NCBI GenBank assembly: GCA_009885895.1
Contig: VFJV01000122.1
Location: 1 to 33,482 of the forward strand
Length of the DNA: 33,482 bases
Source of the DNA: Gammaproteobacteria bacterium
Lineage (GTDB): Bacteria; Pseudomonadota; Gammaproteobacteria; UBA1113
Direction of reading: 5' to 3'
Part shown: piece after piece, positions 21,711-30,618 of the stretch
How positions within the stretch are numbered: position 1 is the stretch's first letter
Layout: every line of letters starts with the position of its first letter
Notes under the pieces: model-generated
What the model saw: only the letters and a program-made list of their open reading frames with translations
Databases searched by the model: none
What the model was told of the DNA's origin: nothing
Position numbers and translations under genes: made by a program

Positions 21711-21905
21711 TGTATAAACGGCACTACCCCTAAACAGGGCGCATTAATCCACTGTTTTAAGGTTTCAATATTTTCAGCACGAGCCCCCTGTGTCAGGAAA
21801 GATGTCTTGTTCTATACCATTGGCCACCCAACCTAATAAAGGCACTTTCATTTGCTGTCTGTTTTGACAGGTTAAAATGGCATGATTCAAACAACCCAAT
21901 TTAAT
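21707..21905 (-). pseudogene. bioD: bioD remnant (dethiobiotin synthetase, C-terminal part, frameshifted)
   Basis: Translated on the minus strand, IKLGCLNHAILTCQ then VPLLGWVANGIEQ match the BioD C-terminal half (family pattern KLGC.NHA.LTA...GWVAN). About at 21795-21806 the frame shifts by one base and the match continues as FLTQGARAENIETLKQWINA followed by PCLGVVPFIH and a TAA at 21709-21707. Everything N-terminal to IKLG, including the ATP-binding P-loop, is missing; the similarity stops near 21905, only 25 bases from the start of a bioA remnant on the other strand. It is therefore a frameshifted, truncated relic. Its stop overlaps the birA stop in the opposite orientation. Confidence 0.8.
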
Positions 21906-21929
21906 TGCTTGATGTGTCAACTCTTTTCC

Positions 21930-22323
21930 GGAGGATGGTTGCCTTTTAGCGTCGTTTTAACCACGGATGCCATTTATCAATTATTTTATGATGTGAGCGA
22001 TCGCTCTAAAGCATTTTTGCATTCACACACTTACTCAGGCAATGCCCTAGGTGCCAGTTTAGCTTTAGCCACACTCACGATTATAGAAAGCGATAATGAC
22101 TGCGCCAGAGTGCGTAAGTTACAAGCTATTCTTTATGCGCATAGGAAAGAAATCGCTGACAAAACTCAGCTGTTACAGAATGTACGTGCCATAGGGGCTA
22201 TAGTCGCTGCTGATTTTGTCTTTGCCCACAATGAACAGTATAATCAACGTTTAGCGCAAAAAGCTGCCGAAATGGGTGCCTTAATACGCCCTATAGGCAA
22301 TACACTCTACTGGCTACCGCCTG
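21930..22323 (+). pseudogene. bioA: bioA remnant (DAPA aminotransferase, C-terminal part)
   Basis: An open frame from 21882 to 22517 contains, from 21930, GGWLPFSVVLTTDAIYQLF, SHTYSGNALGASLALATL, and later MGALIRPIGNTLYWLPP. This is the C-terminal part of BioA (adenosylmethionine-8-amino-7-oxononanoate aminotransferase). The similarity begins just after the PLP-binding lysine region (the K.L.GG junction), so the cofactor lysine and whole N-terminal half are absent and the piece cannot be active as that enzyme. After 22323 the reading stays open to 22517 but no longer resembles BioA. Beside the bioD relic and birA, it marks a lost biotin locus. Confidence 0.8.
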
Positions 22324-22559
22324 AATATTCCGCTACAAACCTTGCTAGATTTAAAGGATATTACGTTACAGGCGATGTAAATTACGTAATAAAATACGTT
22401 ATTTTTGCAGGTGTAGGAAAAAGAGAAAATACAGGTTCAAAACCCATAAATTTTCACTGTGCTTTTTATACGCTAAAGCCATTATTATCATTGCCTTATA
22501 CCTGGTTGTACAAGTAAAACGTTTATTAATGGCTTAAGCTATTGCGGAAAAAAAAACAA

Positions 22560-22640: not shown

Positions 22641-22656
22641 TGCTATAATACATATA
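22641..22656 (+). promoter_or_regulatory. extended -10 promoter of hipBA placing the start at the ATG
   Basis: TGCTATAAT at 22641-22649 is a perfect extended -10 element; no good -35 lies 16-18 bases upstream. The normal start, six to eight bases after the -10, falls at about 22656, the A of the hipB start codon. No ribosome site exists between the -10 and the ATG. This points to a leaderless mRNA. Confidence 0.55.
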
Positions 22657-22979
22657 TGAAAACATTAAAAGACAACCCTACATTGAACCCGCTGCTGTCC
22701 AAAGAGCTACATGATTTGGGCCAATGGCTACGCCTTTTGCGCTTAAAGCGGCATATTACGATTATAGGTATGTGTGAGCGAATCGGGGTAAAGAATCCTC
22801 GTACCGTCAGCAAAATTGAGAAAGGCGACGCTACGGTCTCCCTGGGCACTTTTGTTGCCTATTTAAATGTCTTGGGTTTGGCGGATCAGCTTTCCACTCG
22901 AATTTTGGGGGATTATATTCATGCCCTATCTATAGAAAAAAAGAAGTCTGCTTTTAGCGATAAGGAACTCGATTTTTAA
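22656..22979 (+). CDS. hipB: HipB-type antitoxin, XRE-family regulator
   Basis: 107 aa with one helix-turn-helix domain at about 22-75 (LGQWLRLLRLKRHITIIGMC, then ERIGVKNPRTVSKIEKGDAT). The VSKIEKGD..VSLGTF..YLNVLGLAD pattern is typical of the antitoxin partner of HipA kinases. It would neutralise the toxin and repress the operon by binding inverted repeats upstream. Its TAA overlaps the hipA ATG by one base (TAATG), securing coupled production. The ATG probably sits at the mRNA 5' end. The C-terminal tail (KKKSAFSDKELDF) is charged and likely flexible. Confidence 0.85.
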   Translation: MKTLKDNPTLNPLLSKELHDLGQWLRLLRLKRHITIIGMCERIGVKNPRTVSKIEKGDATVSLGTFVAYLNVLGLADQLSTRILGDYIHALSIEKKKSAFSDKELDF

Positions 22980-24178
22980 TGAAGACGGTGGTGGTTTATA
23001 TTTATTTAGAAGACGAATTCGTCCCCGCAGGGCTTCTAAACTTTGAAAATAAAGGCCGCTATTCTCAGTCCATATTCCGCTATGGTAACAAATATTTAAA
23101 ACGCAGCAATGCATTGAGCCTAGATCTCGTACAACTCCCCTTGCTGCCCAAAGAATTTGTCACGGAATCCGGTTTTGATATTTTTAATGGCCTTCGTGAT
23201 GCAGGTCCCGATCGCTGGGGGCGTTATTTATTAGATAAAAAAGAAAACTATGCTTTAGATGAATTAGACTATATCACGATGGTCGGTGCCGATCGTAGCG
23301 GTGCGTTGGCTTTTGCAGAACACGCCAAAGGCATTGTTCCGCCGCTAGCACACCGTTTAGATCTGAAACTGTGTGTGGAAGCGATAGAGCACGCTTTAAA
23401 CGATGAAAGCACGCCGGCATTAGAAGCCTATTTAAACTACGGGCCTTCTTTGGGCGGTGCGCGCCCTAAAGCAACCGTACTGTGGAATAATAAAGCGCAC
23501 GTGGCTAAATTTACCTTGTCACTGGATAAGAAAAATGAAGCATTAATTGAATACGCGACTATGTCCTTTGCCAAGCATTGCGGTTTAAATGTTCCACCCA
23601 TCGACAAAGCACAAATATCAGGCCGAGATGTATTCCTAATTGAACGCTTTGATCGTGTATTGCAAAACAACATAGAACGGCCTATTCCTTTCATGTCCGG
23701 ATTAACGGCAACAGGTTTACATGAACAGGATTATTCAAAGTGGAGTTATTTGTCTTTGTGCAATGCTATTAATAAATTTAGCAGCGATCCGAATAGGGAC
23801 AAATTAGAATTATTCAAACGCATGGTTTTTAATATTTTAGTTTTTAATAATGACGATCACATGCGCAACCATGGCTTTATCTATGTAGGCAATCAGCAAT
23901 GGGCGTTATCACCACTATACGATGTGGTGCCTGGAATCATCAATTCAGATGTTTACATGCTAGCAATGAATATAGGTGACAAGGGAAAAGAAGCCAGTCT
24001 AGAGAATGCGTTGTCAGCAGCGCGCTATTTTAACCTAAGCGATAGTAAAGCCAAACAGAGTATCGCCGAATTAGCCAATAATCTGAAGCACTGGGAGAAA
24101 CACTATAAAGAATGTGGTGTCAGCGAGCAAGATATCCATAAGTTGCGCCATTCGTTTTTTAGATTTAAAACTGCGTAG
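22979..24178 (+). CDS. hipA: HipA-type serine/threonine kinase toxin
   Basis: Toxin kinase of a type II pair; E. coli HipA phosphorylates glutamyl-tRNA synthetase and causes persistence, but the target here is unknown. The N-terminal subdomain has SGFDIFNGLRDAGPDRWGR. The glycine-rich loop GPSLGGARPKA (near 150-160) contains the serine that other HipA proteins autophosphorylate. Then come FLIERFDRV, the catalytic loop NILVFNNDDHMRNHGF, and the metal-binding LSPLYDVVP. All active-site segments are intact and 399 aa is within the family range (440 in E. coli). Base composition resembles the neighbours, and no transposase or integrase is nearby, though the pair sits right beside the decayed bio genes. 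Confidence 0.9.
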   Translation: MKTVVVYIYLEDEFVPAGLLNFENKGRYSQSIFRYGNKYLKRSNALSLDLVQLPLLPKEFVTESGFDIFNGLRDAGPDRWGRYLLDKKENYALDELDYITMVGADRSGALAFAEHAKGIVPPLAHRLDLKLCVEAIEHALNDESTPALEAYLNYGPSLGGARPKATVLWNNKAHVAKFTLSLDKKNEALIEYATMSFAKHCGLNVPPIDKAQISGRDVFLIERFDRVLQNNIERPIPFMSGLTATGLHEQDYSKWSYLSLCNAINKFSSDPNRDKLELFKRMVFNILVFNNDDHMRNHGFIYVGNQQWALSPLYDVVPGIINSDVYMLAMNIGDKGKEASLENALSAARYFNLSDSKAKQSIAELANNLKHWEKHYKECGVSEQDIHKLRHSFFRFKTA

Positions 24179-24186
24179 AGTCTATC

Positions 24187-24780
24187 TTACATCCCAGTAG
24201 GATAAGCTGCTAAATCAATAACCCCACTTTGCCTTATACTCTGAAATGCTTTCGCATATTCTTCCAGCACTTTGACCGAATAGCCTAAACGATCGCGGAT
24301 GCGCGTATCGTTTTCATTCTCGCTTTCTGGCGTGTTGAGGACTTGCTCTACTTGACGCACAATAGCGTGATCTGGAATATAACAAATGCGGCTGTTTTTA
24401 TAGCTGCTCATACGTAATTCAGCAATGGGGTAAGCACCGCCTAGGCCCGAGGATACGCTAACGAGCAATGCCGGTTTATGCGAAAATTCTTTTCCAAATG
24501 CAACAAATAAATTTTTCATTGCAGGAGGAACCATTCCATGCCATTCAGGAATAACGAAAATAAACGCATCGGCTTTGTTGAGTTCCTCGGAAAAAACTTC
24601 ACTTTGCGCTATATCCTGATCTTTTAGGCTATGAAAAGCCTCGTTATCCCACAATTTAGGTAATAACTCTTTAACGCTGTGTATAGACTGTTTAACGCGC
24701 ACTAAAGTACTAAGATATTGCGCTACTTTGGCCGATTGTGAATTGTGGCGCGAGCTGCCAACGACGATAGAGATAAGCAT
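24187..24780 (-). CDS. NADPH-dependent FMN reductase-family flavoprotein
   Basis: 197 aa with a flavodoxin-like fold. The N-terminal phosphate-binding loop is GSSRHNSQSAKVA (residues 8-20) and the flavin-contact segment FVIPEWHGMVPPAMKNLF replaces the usual PEYNGS..P..KN. VSVSSGLGG follows, as in the family. It probably reduces FMN, quinones or other acceptors with NAD(P)H; the substrate cannot be read from sequence. GGGGG about six bases before the ATG is the ribosome site. It follows the GTP-cyclohydrolase-II-like gene on the same strand after 52 bases but has its own candidate promoter, and it converges with hipA. Confidence 0.82.
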   Translation of the reverse strand: MLISIVVGSSRHNSQSAKVAQYLSTLVRVKQSIHSVKELLPKLWDNEAFHSLKDQDIAQSEVFSEELNKADAFIFVIPEWHGMVPPAMKNLFVAFGKEFSHKPALLVSVSSGLGGAYPIAELRMSSYKNSRICYIPDHAIVRQVEQVLNTPESENENDTRIRDRLGYSVKVLEEYAKAFQSIRQSGVIDLAAYPTGM

Positions 24781-24810: not shown

Positions 24811-24839
24811 ATTGTAGCATAATACAATCTCACTATGAA
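24811..24839 (-). promoter_or_regulatory. candidate promoter of the FMN-reductase-family gene
   Basis: On the minus strand, -35 TTCATA (24839-24834), a 17-base spacer and -10 TACAAT (24816-24811). It overlaps the stop codon of the gene upstream. Each box is one or two bases off consensus. Confidence 0.4.
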
Positions 24840-25306
24840 GATGGCATAGCAACCTCTATGCCCCACTCCTGCAGCTGACGTACTTGCTCAGGATCATAAG
24901 AAAATAAGTGTATACTTTTAATCCCCATTGTTTTTAACATTTGCGCGGCAACCTTGTAACTGCGTAGTTCATTATAGTCCTCCTTATCACAGCCAGTTTG
25001 CCCTAAATAAAGAAGAATGCCACTATTTTCGCTAAAATAGTGTATTGTCTGCCACAATTTATCACTGCAAGCAAAATGTTCTGATTCAATTGCATTTCTT
25101 AAGCAGCCGCAATGTATTCCTATCATTGGTTTATCTTCAAAAACCGCCTTTTTAAAAGCAAGGGCAATATGTTCTTTATAGGAGCATAAGCCCTCGAAGC
25201 TATAGAAATAACAGTCTCCACTTTCTAAAGGAATGCGTACCTTTGTTTTGATTTTAGGGGCAGGCAAATGCAGGGTTTGCCTTGTTTTTCGCTTGACATA
25301 AACCAT
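24833..25306 (-). CDS. shortened GTP cyclohydrolase II-like protein, likely without that activity
   Basis: 157 aa. The order of segments follows RibA: VRIPLESGDCYFYSFEG with YKEHIALAF (residues 23-51), IGIHCGCLRN (62-70), SENSGILLYLGQTG (92-105) and LRSYKVAAQMLKTMGIKSIH (114-133), then LFSYDPEQVRQLQEWGIEV. Key features of true GTP cyclohydrolase II are altered. The three-cysteine zinc motif (C..11..CDC) is reduced to Cys68 and Cys80 followed by Ser-Asp; the RQEGR loop reads GQTGCD; about 25-30 residues after LRSY, a conserved active-site part of the family, are missing, as is the C-terminal tail. The frame is open and has AGGAGA before the ATG and a good promoter, so it is expressed-looking, not an evident wreck. 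It may be a binding protein or a new enzyme. Confidence 0.6.
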   Translation of the reverse strand: MVYVKRKTRQTLHLPAPKIKTKVRIPLESGDCYFYSFEGLCSYKEHIALAFKKAVFEDKPMIGIHCGCLRNAIESEHFACSDKLWQTIHYFSENSGILLYLGQTGCDKEDYNELRSYKVAAQMLKTMGIKSIHLFSYDPEQVRQLQEWGIEVAMPSS

Positions 25307-25365
25307 AATTATCTCCTGATATACAAAACCACACTAAACACTACAGGGGATAATTTATTAATTAT

Positions 25366-25394
25366 AGCATACATTAAATAATTTTCAGTGTCAA
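25366..25394 (-). promoter_or_regulatory. promoter of the GTP-cyclohydrolase-II-like gene
   Basis: On the minus strand, a perfect -35 TTGACA (25394-25389), a 17-base spacer and -10 TATGCT (25371-25366). An extended -10 TGCTATAAT overlaps it four bases downstream. The leader is about 50 bases, ending in AGGAGA before the ATG. Confidence 0.55.
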
Positions 25395-25492: not shown

Positions 25493-27295
25493 GTGCTTAA
25501 TTTAACCGCTACATCCAGCCATCCTCGTAGAAAGCACAACGTGTATCGATGTTTGCTATTCTGCTTATTGTTATCGGTACCACTAATGATGCAAGCAATC
25601 CCCACATTTACCTTTCAAGTTTTGGGTATAGCACAACCCGTTTTAGAAAATGTGCAAAAAAGCGTGGAAAGCTTGCCTAGACATTTGCCGGAAAAAGCCA
25701 GTGCCCAAGAAATAGCCGTTATTTTCGATCAAATTGACGATACAACTAAAAAAGCACTGGCACCCTATGGTTATTTTACACCTACTATTGTTGTAAAAAA
25801 ACACCTGGTTAAAAAAGATGCCTGGGCCATCACCATAAAAATACAGCTCGGGCCACAAACACACATCAATAACCTACATCTTGCTATCACGGGTGAGGGT
25901 GAAAAAAACAAAACACTACAACTGGCAATCAACGATTTCCCCTTAAAAAAAGGGATGCCTTTAGATACCGACTTATATGAAGAAAGCAAAAAGAAATTAG
26001 TGGCGCTCGCCAATACGGCGGGTTACATGTCCCCCACCTTTACCCAACATGAAATTGCCGTCAATAAAGAAACGCATCTAGCCAACATCAACTTAACCTT
26101 TGATACCGGCCCGCAATATTATTTCGGTGCAGTACACTTTAATCAAGAATTTTATCAGGATAGTTTTTTACAGTCTTTCCCACAATTTAAAGAAGGCGAC
26201 GTCTATTCACCCACAGCCGTATTGATGCTTCAAGAAAGTTTGAATGGAACGCCGTATTTTGCGAGCATTAATGTGGCACCAGAGCAGAATACAGACAGCA
26301 CCAATATCCCTATTGTGGTTGATTTAACACCCAGCAAGGCGAAAGCCTACAGTCTCGGTGTGGGTTATGGTACCGATACAGGGCCACGGTTAACGGGATC
26401 TTGGGAACAACGCCATATAACGGATACGGGGCAATACTTTAAAGCCTACATGCAATTGTCCACCGTACAAAGCACACTGGATATGCGCTATATTATTCCG
26501 GGAAAAGATCCTGTGAATGAACAATATTTTATAGGCGCAAGCTATCAGCAACAATCCCCCAACAGCAGCCAAGGCGAAACAGAAAAATTATCTGCGGGTA
26601 AACAACAATTATGGAAGAAGTGGACGGTTAGTTCCAGTTTAAGCTTGCAGCACGATCGCTATAGCTTATTAGGAGATCCTTACCGTGAAACGTCTATGTT
26701 ATTGCCTAGCGTTACCTTATACAAAACCAGTTATGATGATGTGGTTTTTCCTCGCAGAGGCTACAGTGCTAATTTGACCGTGCGTGGTGCGAGCACTGCC
26801 ACGTATAGCGATACCAATTTTGTGCAAGCCAAATTTTCACCTAAATTTATTTTAAGTCCTTTCGATTTTAGCCGCATCATATTACGCTCTGATTTAGGGT
26901 ATACTGCAGTAGCCGATCCGGCAACGATTCCCTTATCGCTACAATTTTCTGCCGGCGGTAGCGACAGCATACGCGGTTACAGTTATGAAGCCATAGGTCC
27001 TGGCCGTTATTTGTATGTAGGCAGTGCTGAATACCAACAACAGGTCTATAACGAGTGGTGGGCAACGACCTTCATAGATGCCGGTAATGTCATCAATAAT
27101 TTCGGTAATTCACAATATAATGTCAATGGAACGCGACTTCCAGACGCGAACTTATCCCAACTCATTAAAAGAAGTGTAGGCGTGGGCATTATGTATGCCT
27201 CTCCTGTAGGCCCCATCGAATTAACCGTGGCAAAACCCATTGCACATTCCGATAAAGGATTCTCTATTCAATTTATAATGGGAGGGAATATTTAA
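25493..27295 (+). CDS. tamA: TamA, Omp85-family outer-membrane translocation and assembly protein
   Basis: 600 aa. A hydrophobic signal segment (CLLFCLLLSVPLMMQA, residues 20-35) precedes three POTRA domains (about 40-270), with YGYFTPTIVV and GPQTHINNLHLAITGEGE typical of TamA. The C-terminal 16-strand barrel starts near AYSLGVGYGTDTGPRLTG, contains the GSDSIRGYSYEAIGPG lid-loop motif and ends FSIQFIMGGNI. With TamB it bridges the membranes for autotransporter insertion and, in current models, lipid transfer. The start is uncertain: GTG at 25493 has no ribosome site, while an in-frame GTG at 25541 has AGAAAG nearby and still leaves a signal peptide. The stop TAA overlaps the tamB ATG. Confidence 0.9.
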   Translation: MLNLTATSSHPRRKHNVYRCLLFCLLLSVPLMMQAIPTFTFQVLGIAQPVLENVQKSVESLPRHLPEKASAQEIAVIFDQIDDTTKKALAPYGYFTPTIVVKKHLVKKDAWAITIKIQLGPQTHINNLHLAITGEGEKNKTLQLAINDFPLKKGMPLDTDLYEESKKKLVALANTAGYMSPTFTQHEIAVNKETHLANINLTFDTGPQYYFGAVHFNQEFYQDSFLQSFPQFKEGDVYSPTAVLMLQESLNGTPYFASINVAPEQNTDSTNIPIVVDLTPSKAKAYSLGVGYGTDTGPRLTGSWEQRHITDTGQYFKAYMQLSTVQSTLDMRYIIPGKDPVNEQYFIGASYQQQSPNSSQGETEKLSAGKQQLWKKWTVSSSLSLQHDRYSLLGDPYRETSMLLPSVTLYKTSYDDVVFPRRGYSANLTVRGASTATYSDTNFVQAKFSPKFILSPFDFSRIILRSDLGYTAVADPATIPLSLQFSAGGSDSIRGYSYEAIGPGRYLYVGSAEYQQQVYNEWWATTFIDAGNVINNFGNSQYNVNGTRLPDANLSQLIKRSVGVGIMYASPVGPIELTVAKPIAHSDKGFSIQFIMGGNI

Positions 27296-30200
27296 TGCGG
27301 TGGATATTGAGTGTATTGCGTGCGCTGCGCGTCGTTCTTATGTTGTTATTGCTAGGCCTAACGGTATTACTCTATATTTTACTAGAAACCTCCTATGGTT
27401 TAAGGCTAGCCAACACCTTTTTACCCTTATTTTTACCCTTTACATTGCAAATTGACGCGCCCCGCGGAGCATTATTGGATACAATGTACGCGGACAAGGT
27501 TACCTACCGTGATAGTGTCGTCGACGTTGAGGTTACACATGGGTCACTGCGCTTAGATGCCCTACGCTTGCTTATGGGTGAAATTAAAGTAAACGATGTA
27601 ATCGCTGATGATGTACGTGTTATTATTCTAGAAAGTGCTGAGCCTACCACCTTGACGCGTGCAAAATTATTGGAAAATTTAACATTGCCTTTTTCGCTTA
27701 AACTGCGCAATAGCACTTTAAAGCATCTACTTGTGGGCGAAGATCACCAAAAGCCTTGGGTTGATGTGCAAAATGCCAAGGTATCCGCTTTAATGAATGC
27801 AGAGCCTCATTTTAGATTGAGTGCCAAATGGAGTGAAGGACAGTTGAACTTTATTCCGGATGTGCCTTTAAAGAGCGCAAATGGAAAATTTAGAATCGAT
27901 GGCAAATTACCTCATTACAGCGTTTCTTTTAATGCGCAATTGCAATTGGCTAATGAAAAAAACAAACTCACGTCTATAGTAGGCCGGGGTGATTTTTCAG
28001 GATTAATCCTGGATACCGTCAATTTACGTCAAGCAAGCAATAACCTTAATGCGCCTATGCAAGTGACTTGGCTGCCTTATTTTCAGTGGGCAATTCCTAA
28101 ATTAACCGGAAAAATTCACGGCTACCCTATCAACGGCCATATGGCCATGCGCGCCGATGGAAAGCGTTGGCAAATAGATAACAGTGAAATTAAACTTCAC
28201 GATGCCTCTTTGGAAATAGCCGGGCAATATAAACAAAACGGGAAATTTAGTTTTAAATTAGCCATTCCAAAAATGGAAACTTTAATAGCGGGCAGTAAAG
28301 GCCGTATTTTTTCAGAAGGTGTTTGGACTGGCACGGCGGCTAACCCCGAGATCAATGCTGTTGCAACGGCAAACGATGTCTATATCAACCCTAATGTATC
28401 GCTAAAACGCTTAGAAGGTCATTTAAATGCTAAGTCATTGTACCCTTCTGCACAGACTTATTGGCAACAATTTCACTTTGTAGCAGGCTTGCGTGCGGAT
28501 CAGATCCATCTTGCGAATCAGAGTTTAGATGAGGCCACTTTAAATTTTGATGGGGCCTTTGATGTAGTGCATGCCGCTTTATTGCATGCTGAAATTAAAA
28601 ACTTACAATTGAGCAACACCCCCATAGACTCCCTCATTGTAGACGTTCGCAACAAAGATGCCTATCAAAAAGCCAGTGTAGCATTGAATTGGGGTAGCAA
28701 AAAATTAACGGCGGTAATAAGTGGCGACTACAAAAATAAAATTTGGCAAGGCATGCTGGAAGATTTTAAGACTAATTTTAATGTGCATTTGCAAAAAAGA
28801 AATTCTATTTTAATAAGCCCAGATGAATTGAAAATAAACCCAATCTGTTTTAGTCTAAATCAAGCTAATCTTTGTGGCGATTTAACTTGGCAAAAAGACA
28901 AAGACTTCAATGCCAAAATGAACGGTAAAAATATCCCTATCACGACTCTCACTCAATTTTTCCTGCCCAAACAAAAAGTTGAGGGCACATTTTCTTTAGA
29001 AGCTAACATGACAGGTGATGGGCATTACATCCAAAGCGGCGATCTTCATTTTTCCTTATCAGACGGAAAATTAATTGACAATAGCGGCGATACACCCATA
29101 GCCATTCCTTTTCGCAAAAGCCATATGGATGTGAGTCTCTCTCAAAAGGGTCTGTCGCTTAATGGCGATTTAAACGTGTTGGACCAACCCCCCATCCGTT
29201 GGCAATTGTTGGCACCTAAACTTAATTTGGGCGATCCTAATTGGTTGGGCACCTCCATAGACGGTTATTTAGAATTTAGCACGCAACACCTGGCGATGAT
29301 AGCTAAATCCTACCCTCAATTACAAAACATGAAGGGAACCTTATCCGCGGATATTAAAATAAAGGGCACCTTGATAGAACCACAATTTTCAGGAGGTCTG
29401 CAGCTTAAACAAGGAGAATTAGATGTACCTTCCTTAGGATTGCATCTAAAGCCCATAGAATTTAGTGCGCAAGCACAAAATAATAAAATCACCTATGATG
29501 GGCACATCAACACTAATCCTGGGCTGATCAACATACAAGGCTATACCGATTTAAGTCCAAATAACCGCAAAACCGAGCTGCAGATTAATGGCAATGCGAT
29601 TACGGTTATGCGTACCACGGAATATCAAGTTAATGCAACACCAGAATTACATTTGACTTGGTTCAACCATCTTTTAAATGTAGAGGGTCAAATTACTATC
29701 CCGAGTGCACAGTTAAGCCCTATCGATTTAGGTGATACCGTAACGTTATCCAATGATGTTGTTTTTGTGGATGGGAAAGAAAAAAAGGAAAAAACAGATT
29801 TCTCCATACACAGTCATGTAAAGATCATCTTGGGAGATAAAGTCCTTCTGAATGTTAAAGGCTTAACGGCGCGTTTAACGGGCGCTGTAGATGTGCAAGA
29901 AAATGAAAACAGCGCGCAAACAACGGGGTTAGGGCAGATTAATATCATCGATGGTCGCTATAAAGCCCATGGGCAAGACCTAAAGGTACGTACTGGCCGG
30001 GCTATTTTCACTGGAGGCTCAGTGACCAATCCTGCTTTGTATGCGGAGGTCATACGCACCGTCAGCACCTATGTGACCGCAAATAACACGCCTACCTCCG
30101 GGCAAAAAACACAACAATCTTATGGTGCGCTACAAAGCGATGTTATTGTGGGTGCGCGCATTACCGGTACCGTCGATATTCCACAAATTACTTTTTTCTC

Positions 30201-30618
30201 TGAACCCGCAGGTCTGACTCAATCACAAATTTTATCCTATTTAGTATTAGGTAAAGGTGAATCGTCAGGCTCTGACTTTGATACCTCTATATTATTAAAT
30301 GCCATATCTTTTCTAGACATAGGGGGTAAAGAAAGCGCGGCAACAAAGAGTACACTGCAAAAAGGCTTGGGCTTAGATGAACTCGGCCTGCAATCGGGAC
30401 AAGAATATAGTAGCGAAAGCCAGTCTCTAGTCAATAACACTTCTTTGGTGTTGGGCAAAGCCTTATCGCCAAAATTGTTTGTAGACTACAGCATAGGATT
30501 GATTGAACCCATCAATATTTTACGCATACGGTATCAATTTGCAAAACATTTTATGCTACGATCTGAATCAAGCACCAATGCTCAGGGTATAGACGTGTTT
30601 TATAATATTGAGCGTTAG
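27295..30618 (+). CDS. tamB: TamB, AsmA-like bridge protein
   Basis: 1107 aa. One N-terminal membrane helix (VVLMLLLLGLTVLLYILLET, residues 13-32) anchors it in the inner membrane. A long beta-rich region of repeated short strands forms the groove of the bridge-like lipid transfer family. The C-terminal DUF490/TamB domain is present, with GLGQINIIDGRYKAHGQDL, GRAIFTGGSVTNPALYAEVI, SQILSYLVLGK and the ending IRYQFAKHFMLRSESS...GIDVFYNIER. Its ATG shares a base with the tamA stop. It is slightly shorter than E. coli TamB (1259). No terminator is seen in the nine bases before the convergent hpt. Confidence 0.92.
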   Translation: MRWILSVLRALRVVLMLLLLGLTVLLYILLETSYGLRLANTFLPLFLPFTLQIDAPRGALLDTMYADKVTYRDSVVDVEVTHGSLRLDALRLLMGEIKVNDVIADDVRVIILESAEPTTLTRAKLLENLTLPFSLKLRNSTLKHLLVGEDHQKPWVDVQNAKVSALMNAEPHFRLSAKWSEGQLNFIPDVPLKSANGKFRIDGKLPHYSVSFNAQLQLANEKNKLTSIVGRGDFSGLILDTVNLRQASNNLNAPMQVTWLPYFQWAIPKLTGKIHGYPINGHMAMRADGKRWQIDNSEIKLHDASLEIAGQYKQNGKFSFKLAIPKMETLIAGSKGRIFSEGVWTGTAANPEINAVATANDVYINPNVSLKRLEGHLNAKSLYPSAQTYWQQFHFVAGLRADQIHLANQSLDEATLNFDGAFDVVHAALLHAEIKNLQLSNTPIDSLIVDVRNKDAYQKASVALNWGSKKLTAVISGDYKNKIWQGMLEDFKTNFNVHLQKRNSILISPDELKINPICFSLNQANLCGDLTWQKDKDFNAKMNGKNIPITTLTQFFLPKQKVEGTFSLEANMTGDGHYIQSGDLHFSLSDGKLIDNSGDTPIAIPFRKSHMDVSLSQKGLSLNGDLNVLDQPPIRWQLLAPKLNLGDPNWLGTSIDGYLEFSTQHLAMIAKSYPQLQNMKGTLSADIKIKGTLIEPQFSGGLQLKQGELDVPSLGLHLKPIEFSAQAQNNKITYDGHINTNPGLINIQGYTDLSPNNRKTELQINGNAITVMRTTEYQVNATPELHLTWFNHLLNVEGQITIPSAQLSPIDLGDTVTLSNDVVFVDGKEKKEKTDFSIHSHVKIILGDKVLLNVKGLTARLTGAVDVQENENSAQTTGLGQINIIDGRYKAHGQDLKVRTGRAIFTGGSVTNPALYAEVIRTVSTYVTANNTPTSGQKTQQSYGALQSDVIVGARITGTVDIPQITFFSEPAGLTQSQILSYLVLGKGESSGSDFDTSILLNAISFLDIGGKESAATKSTLQKGLGLDELGLQSGQEYSSESQSLVNNTSLVLGKALSPKLFVDYSIGLIEPINILRIRYQFAKHFMLRSESSTNAQGIDVFYNIER

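Follow-up and report, generated by a model that had tools for sequence, protein, structure and literature searches.

The ribA-like gene and its surroundings

The window, by which we mean the whole stretch of 33,482 nucleotides analysed here (contig VFJV01000122.1 of a gammaproteobacterium), carries on its minus strand a short gene related to GTP cyclohydrolase II (GCHII, RibA), located between an FMN_red-family reductase gene and the divergently transcribed tamA-tamB pair. The features of this locus are the following:

24187..24780, minus strand: FMN_red-family reductase, 52 bp downstream of the shortened ribA and syntenic in G006, G007 and G008
24833..25306, minus strand: shortened RibA-like putative pseudoenzyme of 157 aa (from ORF, Pfam, dN/dS and fold)
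24833..24835, minus strand: early stop codon, with ~27 aa of tail missing relative to the full-length orthologue
24968..25003, minus strand: former RQEGR loop, residues 102-113, from the alignment: GQTGCDKEDYNE
24971..24973, minus strand: junction left by the 75-bp (25-aa) deletion in the active-site segment, in the same alignment columns in G007 (DNA alignment)
25058..25114, minus strand: former zinc/GTP loop, residues 65-83, from the alignment: HCGCLRNAIESEHFACSDK
25115..25306, minus strand: N-terminal part, residues 1-64, 47/64 identical between the window protein and that of G007
25313..25317, minus strand: ribosome binding site AGGAG, 6 nt before the ATG
25366..25394, minus strand: promoter-like TTGACA-17-TATGCT, overlapping TATAAT, 10/12 consensus; the -35 box is common to the ribD-ribA operon of relatives
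25493..30618, plus strand: tamA-tamB, the synteny anchor beside the shortened ribA

As stated in a preliminary description of this DNA, the ORF is intact and preceded by a good ribosome site; it has an ATG start and no internal stop. The Pfam family GTP_cyclohydro2 (PF00925) matched its product with 63 bits (cut-off 23.3, E=3e-17), in two separate stretches and with profile positions ~90-118 missing. All curated NCBIfam cut-offs for RibA were failed (NF001591, 79.6 vs 148 bits; TIGR00505, 44.7 vs 205.9 bits). Homology and fold place the protein in the GTP cyclohydrolase II superfamily; among solved structures, the GCHII enzymes 4rl4 and 2bz0 are closest to it in sequence. The strong promoter that had been proposed stands in part: TTGACA is present and the -35 box lies at the same place in five of five species, but a consensus scan by itself performed no better than chance (6 found vs 4.5 expected). 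The start region of the gene is also conserved, and the N-terminal part includes an extension of ~15-20 aa that is absent from E. coli RibA and present in the full-length orthologues. Rfam detected no RNA element anywhere in the window; among the same-genus species, the stretches searched contained an FMN riboswitch only in G006, upstream of ribD (L047 1678-1834).

The window genome (G000) was compared with the same-genus species among the 10 genomes that represent its order in the search set: G006, G007 (JAJXVU010000010, a 'Proteobacteria bacterium' bin), G008 and G009 (CAMFJO010000026, 'uncultured Legionellales'). Beside tamA-tamB, G006 and G008 carry ribD, a ribA of 210 aa, a WD40 gene and, further down, the FMN_red gene, and G009 carries ribD and ribA up to the contig end. 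A full-length, catalytically complete RibA is thus encoded downstream of ribD at this locus in three species. The G009 contig end (L044 1-46) is Nextera adapter sequence, which creates a false ribA C-terminus (LLYTSPSPRD). The ribD-ribA-WD40 operon (L042 5433-8903 and L043 4504-8072) encodes the start of the riboflavin pathway for a second time and, it seems, redundantly, in linkage with a WD40 gene, an arrangement that we take to be reminiscent of azapteridine biosynthetic operons. At the window and G007 loci ribD and the WD40 gene are absent, ribA is shortened and FMN_red comes next. Searches with the WD40 gene gave no match at 1e-20 in G000 or G007 and no relative at 1e-60 among 369 genomes of the class. 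According to their tamA and tamB identities the window species and G007 are the closest pair, and FMN_red identities leave G007 and G008 unseparated. Wherever that side of the locus was assembled, in four of four species, the FMN_red gene is found downstream, but it adjoins ribA only where the WD40 gene has been lost, in two of them. Its adjacency, offered in the preliminary description as a flavin-related link, results from that loss and gives no clue to function.

On the far side of FMN_red the window holds remnants of bioD (21716-21908, minus strand) and bioA (21900-22377, plus strand, frameshifted near 22321), 78-84% identical to intact genes of G007. In G007 a bioA-bioB-F-H-C-D cluster adjoins FMN_red, so the biotin operon was lost or moved here in the window species; a hipB-hipA-type toxin-antitoxin pair (22656-24178, plus strand) occupies the breakpoint of the lost cluster.

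Two shortened orthologues are known, those of the window and of G007. A class-wide search (369 genomes, E<=1e-16) revealed no further relative, in a set that does not contain G007 and hence has no outside positive control. The scan of genome contigs produced matches only in G007 and G009, plus one weak match of 15 residues. No relative was found in viral contigs, and phages and plasmids gave only distant RibA matches, with 25-29% identity among the matches listed.

Losses from the active site and the predicted fold

The segments of the shortened protein follow the same order as in standalone RibA, as had been proposed. Compared with the 210-aa orthologue, the window protein lacks 25 aa of the active-site segment, 1 aa of the zinc loop and ~27 aa of the tail, 53 residues in all, which agrees with the loss of the tail and of some 25-30 active-site residues described previously. 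The 25-residue gap spans from within RGIGLYNK to DTFEAN of the full-length orthologues and is identical in the two shortened proteins; both terminate just after GIEV and they are 63-65% identical, depending on the method. They also share eight derived residues at positions that are invariant across the three full-length proteins, among them the E53 equivalent (now Gly), the Q70 equivalent (now Lys) and an Arg in the RQEGR loop (now Cys). Since deletion, tail loss and derived residues are common to both, the simplest reading of the sequences is that catalysis was lost once, before the window species and G007 split, rather than twice.

The zinc loop of the window protein keeps the C54 and C67 equivalents and has lost that of C65; the E53 and Q70 equivalents are the substituted residues mentioned above, and a new cysteine appears at position 66. 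The motif CX2GX7CXC is broken: Phe replaces the middle Cys, and one residue is missing from the loop. The partial loss of the zinc-cysteine motif announced in the preliminary description therefore concerns only one of the three cysteines, with the new one placed two residues before the first, and does not extend to G007, which retains all three with the canonical CX10CXC spacing. The replacement of the RQEGR loop by GQTGCD (residues 102-107) was confirmed. Eighteen E. coli RibA residues at the GTP and zinc sites, checked against the 2bz0 alignment, served as reference. The window protein keeps 5 of them and the G007 protein 6, the full-length orthologues 15-16 and the RibBA domains of the family 16-17. 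The equivalents of R49, E53, Q70, E92, R94, Y105, T114 and K154 are lost or deleted in both shortened proteins. Within the GTP-contacting set (R49, E53, Q70, EGR 92-94, T114 and K154) the sole survivor is the Gly of EGR, in the window copy only. With the residues for GTP binding, ring opening and covalent catalysis mostly gone, the shortened protein, to judge from its sequence, cannot be a working GCHII.

AlphaFold2 modelled the window protein with a mean pLDDT of 78 from a 6-sequence alignment and the G007 protein with 82.5 from 18 sequences; confidence is low at the N-terminal residues and where the active-site loops used to be. In Foldseek searches, the structural comparison recommended at the outset, both models matched first the GCHII of H. 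pylori and E. coli (4rl4 and 2bz0, TM 0.66-0.70 by query length), followed by RibA2 of M. tuberculosis and RibBX of A. baumannii (6mnz; TM 0.53-0.56). The models thus predict that the GCHII scaffold survives and the loops do not.

Selection on the shortened gene

Pairwise dN/dS between the window species and G007 was 0.09 for the shortened ribA, compared with 0.11 for FMN_red, 0.13 for tamA, 0.12 for tamB and 0.16 for a DUF gene. On a five-species tree the two shortened tips jointly gave 0.091, and dN/dS=1 was rejected (2dlnL 92). With free branch lengths dN/dS=1 was not rejected for the window branch alone, where synonymous sites are saturated; branch lengths were for this reason fixed from 1,906 codons of the neighbours tamA, tamB and FMN_red, used as a clock. 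Under this clock dN/dS was 0.167 on the window branch, 0.136 on the G007 branch, 0.093 on the full-length branches and 0.27 on the stem, and neutrality was rejected on each tip (2dlnL 156 for the window, 163 for G007). Constraint on the 64 N-terminal codons (0.08-0.10, same clock) matches that in the full-length gene, and the remainder is somewhat relaxed (0.18-0.22 vs 0.086). Simulated under neutrality, the window branch is expected to accumulate 6.6 stops, and 0.1% of the runs were stop-free. By segment, the two shortened proteins are identical at 10/19 positions of the zinc/GTP loop and 15/18 of the scaffold segment 85-102. In the RQEGR loop they share 3/11 residues, compared with 11/11 between full-length orthologues. 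Judging from these identities, the active-site loops diverged freely between the two species and the scaffold did not.

These results bear on how the gene had been interpreted. Neither near-neutral evolution nor frame lesions, the marks of a pseudogene, were found. The idea of a 'catalytically rewired' enzyme was not borne out, as there is no evidence of new chemistry and the active-site loops are the freely diverging parts. The preliminary description also held that full-length RibA orthologues, with relaxed selection on this copy, would speak against a repurposed fold. Orthologues do exist and three of them are full-length RibA, but G007 shares the short form, and constraint is only mildly relaxed (0.14-0.17 vs 0.09 in full-length copies, with neutrality rejected). 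Being intact, deprived of catalytic residues and maintained by selection, the gene fits a repurposed fold better than a random relic, and we consider it very probable that it is selected and is not a GCHII.

Relation to RibBX and possible origin

In G007 the main riboflavin genes form a complete ribD-ribE-ribBA-ribH cluster, and the RibBA is intact, with 16 of the 18 key GCHII residues. In this RibBA (L045 3244-4503) the Glu of the GTP loop is replaced by Ser (HSSC for HSEC) and RQEGR reads QQEGR, changes that could bear on its GCHII rate. In the window assembly no match to full-length RibA/RibBA, RibB (PF00926), RibE or RibH was found, and the main rib cluster falls at a contig break: contig C164 (L085 1-608) ends inside the ribD of a cluster syntenic with that of G007, leaving ribE, ribBA and ribH unassembled. 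An assembly gap is consequently the most likely reason for the missing RibB, RibE and RibH, and RibBA is probably missing for the same reason.

Among known systems, standalone RibA (PF00925, TIGR00505, NF001591) shares with the shortened protein its fold, segment order and direct descent, as indicated by the syntenic full-length orthologues, and differs from it in the 5-6 of 18 key residues kept, the 25-aa deletion, the missing tail and the sub-cut-off scores. The RibBA of the same genus has a GCHII domain in common with it but is only ~28% identical, catalytically complete and encoded at another locus. The closest working analogue is RibBX of Shewanella, Acinetobacter and Aeromonas (PDB 6mnz), in which a DHBP synthase carries a fused X domain that is GCHII-like but dead, so a GCHII-fold pseudoenzyme is already known. 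RibX is reported to have no GCHII activity, yet to regulate its RibB domain (PMC10012899). The shortened protein and RibX are both GCHII-fold pseudoenzymes with zinc/GTP residues lost, a degenerated active-site segment and no C-terminal tail, kept beside an otherwise working riboflavin pathway. In RibBX-type proteins elsewhere in the class, the active-site segment of the X domain has degenerated in a like manner, and the domain has the same end point. The shortened protein differs in being free-standing, a 157-aa ORF without an N-terminal RibB fusion, and in having arisen independently within a single genus, by descent from a standalone RibA; the catalytic GCHII here sits in RibBA, the reverse of the arrangement in RibBX organisms. 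In the part of the literature covered we found no description of a free-standing, recently arisen GCHII pseudoenzyme at a syntenic locus with both states in one genus.

Comparison of the loci points to the following origin. The gene derives from the standalone GCHII of the ribD-ribA(-WD40) operon, which was redundant alongside the main ribD-ribE-ribBA-ribH cluster. As the comparison shows, the ancestor shared by the window species and G007 lost ribD and the WD40 gene, and its ribA shed its active-site segment and C-terminal tail. The remaining 157-aa protein has retained the GCHII scaffold and a promoter, and purifying selection has acted on it ever since. It may now serve as a partner without catalysis, in the manner of the RibBX X domain, binding the DHBP-synthase or GCHII part of RibBA and tuning flux into riboflavin. 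By analogy with RibX such partner binding is the most likely role; since GCHII forms homodimers, a mixed dimer with the GCHII part of RibBA would be natural, and the G007 RibBA provides a target. Shortened ribA and RibBA are seen together in one genome only (G007) and just two shortened orthologues are known, which counts against this model, as do the cysteines retained in G007, which could point to a metal-dependent role of the protein itself. We give the whole explanation, from redundant RibA to selected partner of RibBA, a probability of roughly 0.45. More tentatively, at somewhat below even odds, the protein would be a free-standing 'RibX': through a single deletion, a standalone GCHII would have been stripped of its active site and turned into a selected partner of RibBA acting in trans, in convergence with the fused X domain of RibBX.

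A selected pseudoenzyme might instead work outside riboflavin synthesis, in metal or nucleotide sensing, as a scaffold or through some small catalytic activity newly acquired by the GCHII fold. Purifying selection in spite of the absent GCHII residues, the three zinc cysteines of G007 and the two of the window protein with a new Cys nearby, and the conserved N-terminal extension foreign to canonical RibA make this a serious contender, though still short of an even chance. It has to accommodate, however, that the former chemistry loops diverge fastest between the two species, which makes a shared new active site there unlikely, and that the shortened proteins show no new domain or conserved motif.

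The gene could also be a redundant ribA drifting to loss whose frame is still open by chance. Its ribD and WD40 partners and 53 residues are gone, selection is mildly relaxed relative to full-length copies, the window copy suffered an extra codon deletion and lost a zinc Cys, and bioA and bioD show that real relics occur in this same window. Those relics, with a frameshift and fragments, also show that true decay here looks different, and we find a relic improbable given dN/dS far below 1 on both branches since the shared deletion, the near absence of stop-free outcomes in the neutral simulation and the conservation of the -35 box and start region. Least credible of all, to the point of being nearly dismissed, is a miniaturised GCHII that is still active: the Arg128 equivalent, one acidic residue at the place of Asp126 and two or three zinc cysteines do remain, but the eight equivalents listed above (R49 to K154) are gone in both species, the sister species has a separate RibBA, and E. 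coli RibA becomes inactive when any one of its zinc cysteines is lost, as stated in PMC10366380 (citing Kaiser 2002).

The conversion of an enzyme into a non-catalytic regulator usually has to be pieced together from distant relatives. At this syntenic locus a full-length enzyme and a shortened pseudoenzyme with shared breakpoints are found within one genus, and selection is measurable on both. How dead GCHII domains (RibX) act is described as unknown for RibBX, and the shortened RibA would offer a separate protein in which to ask this question.
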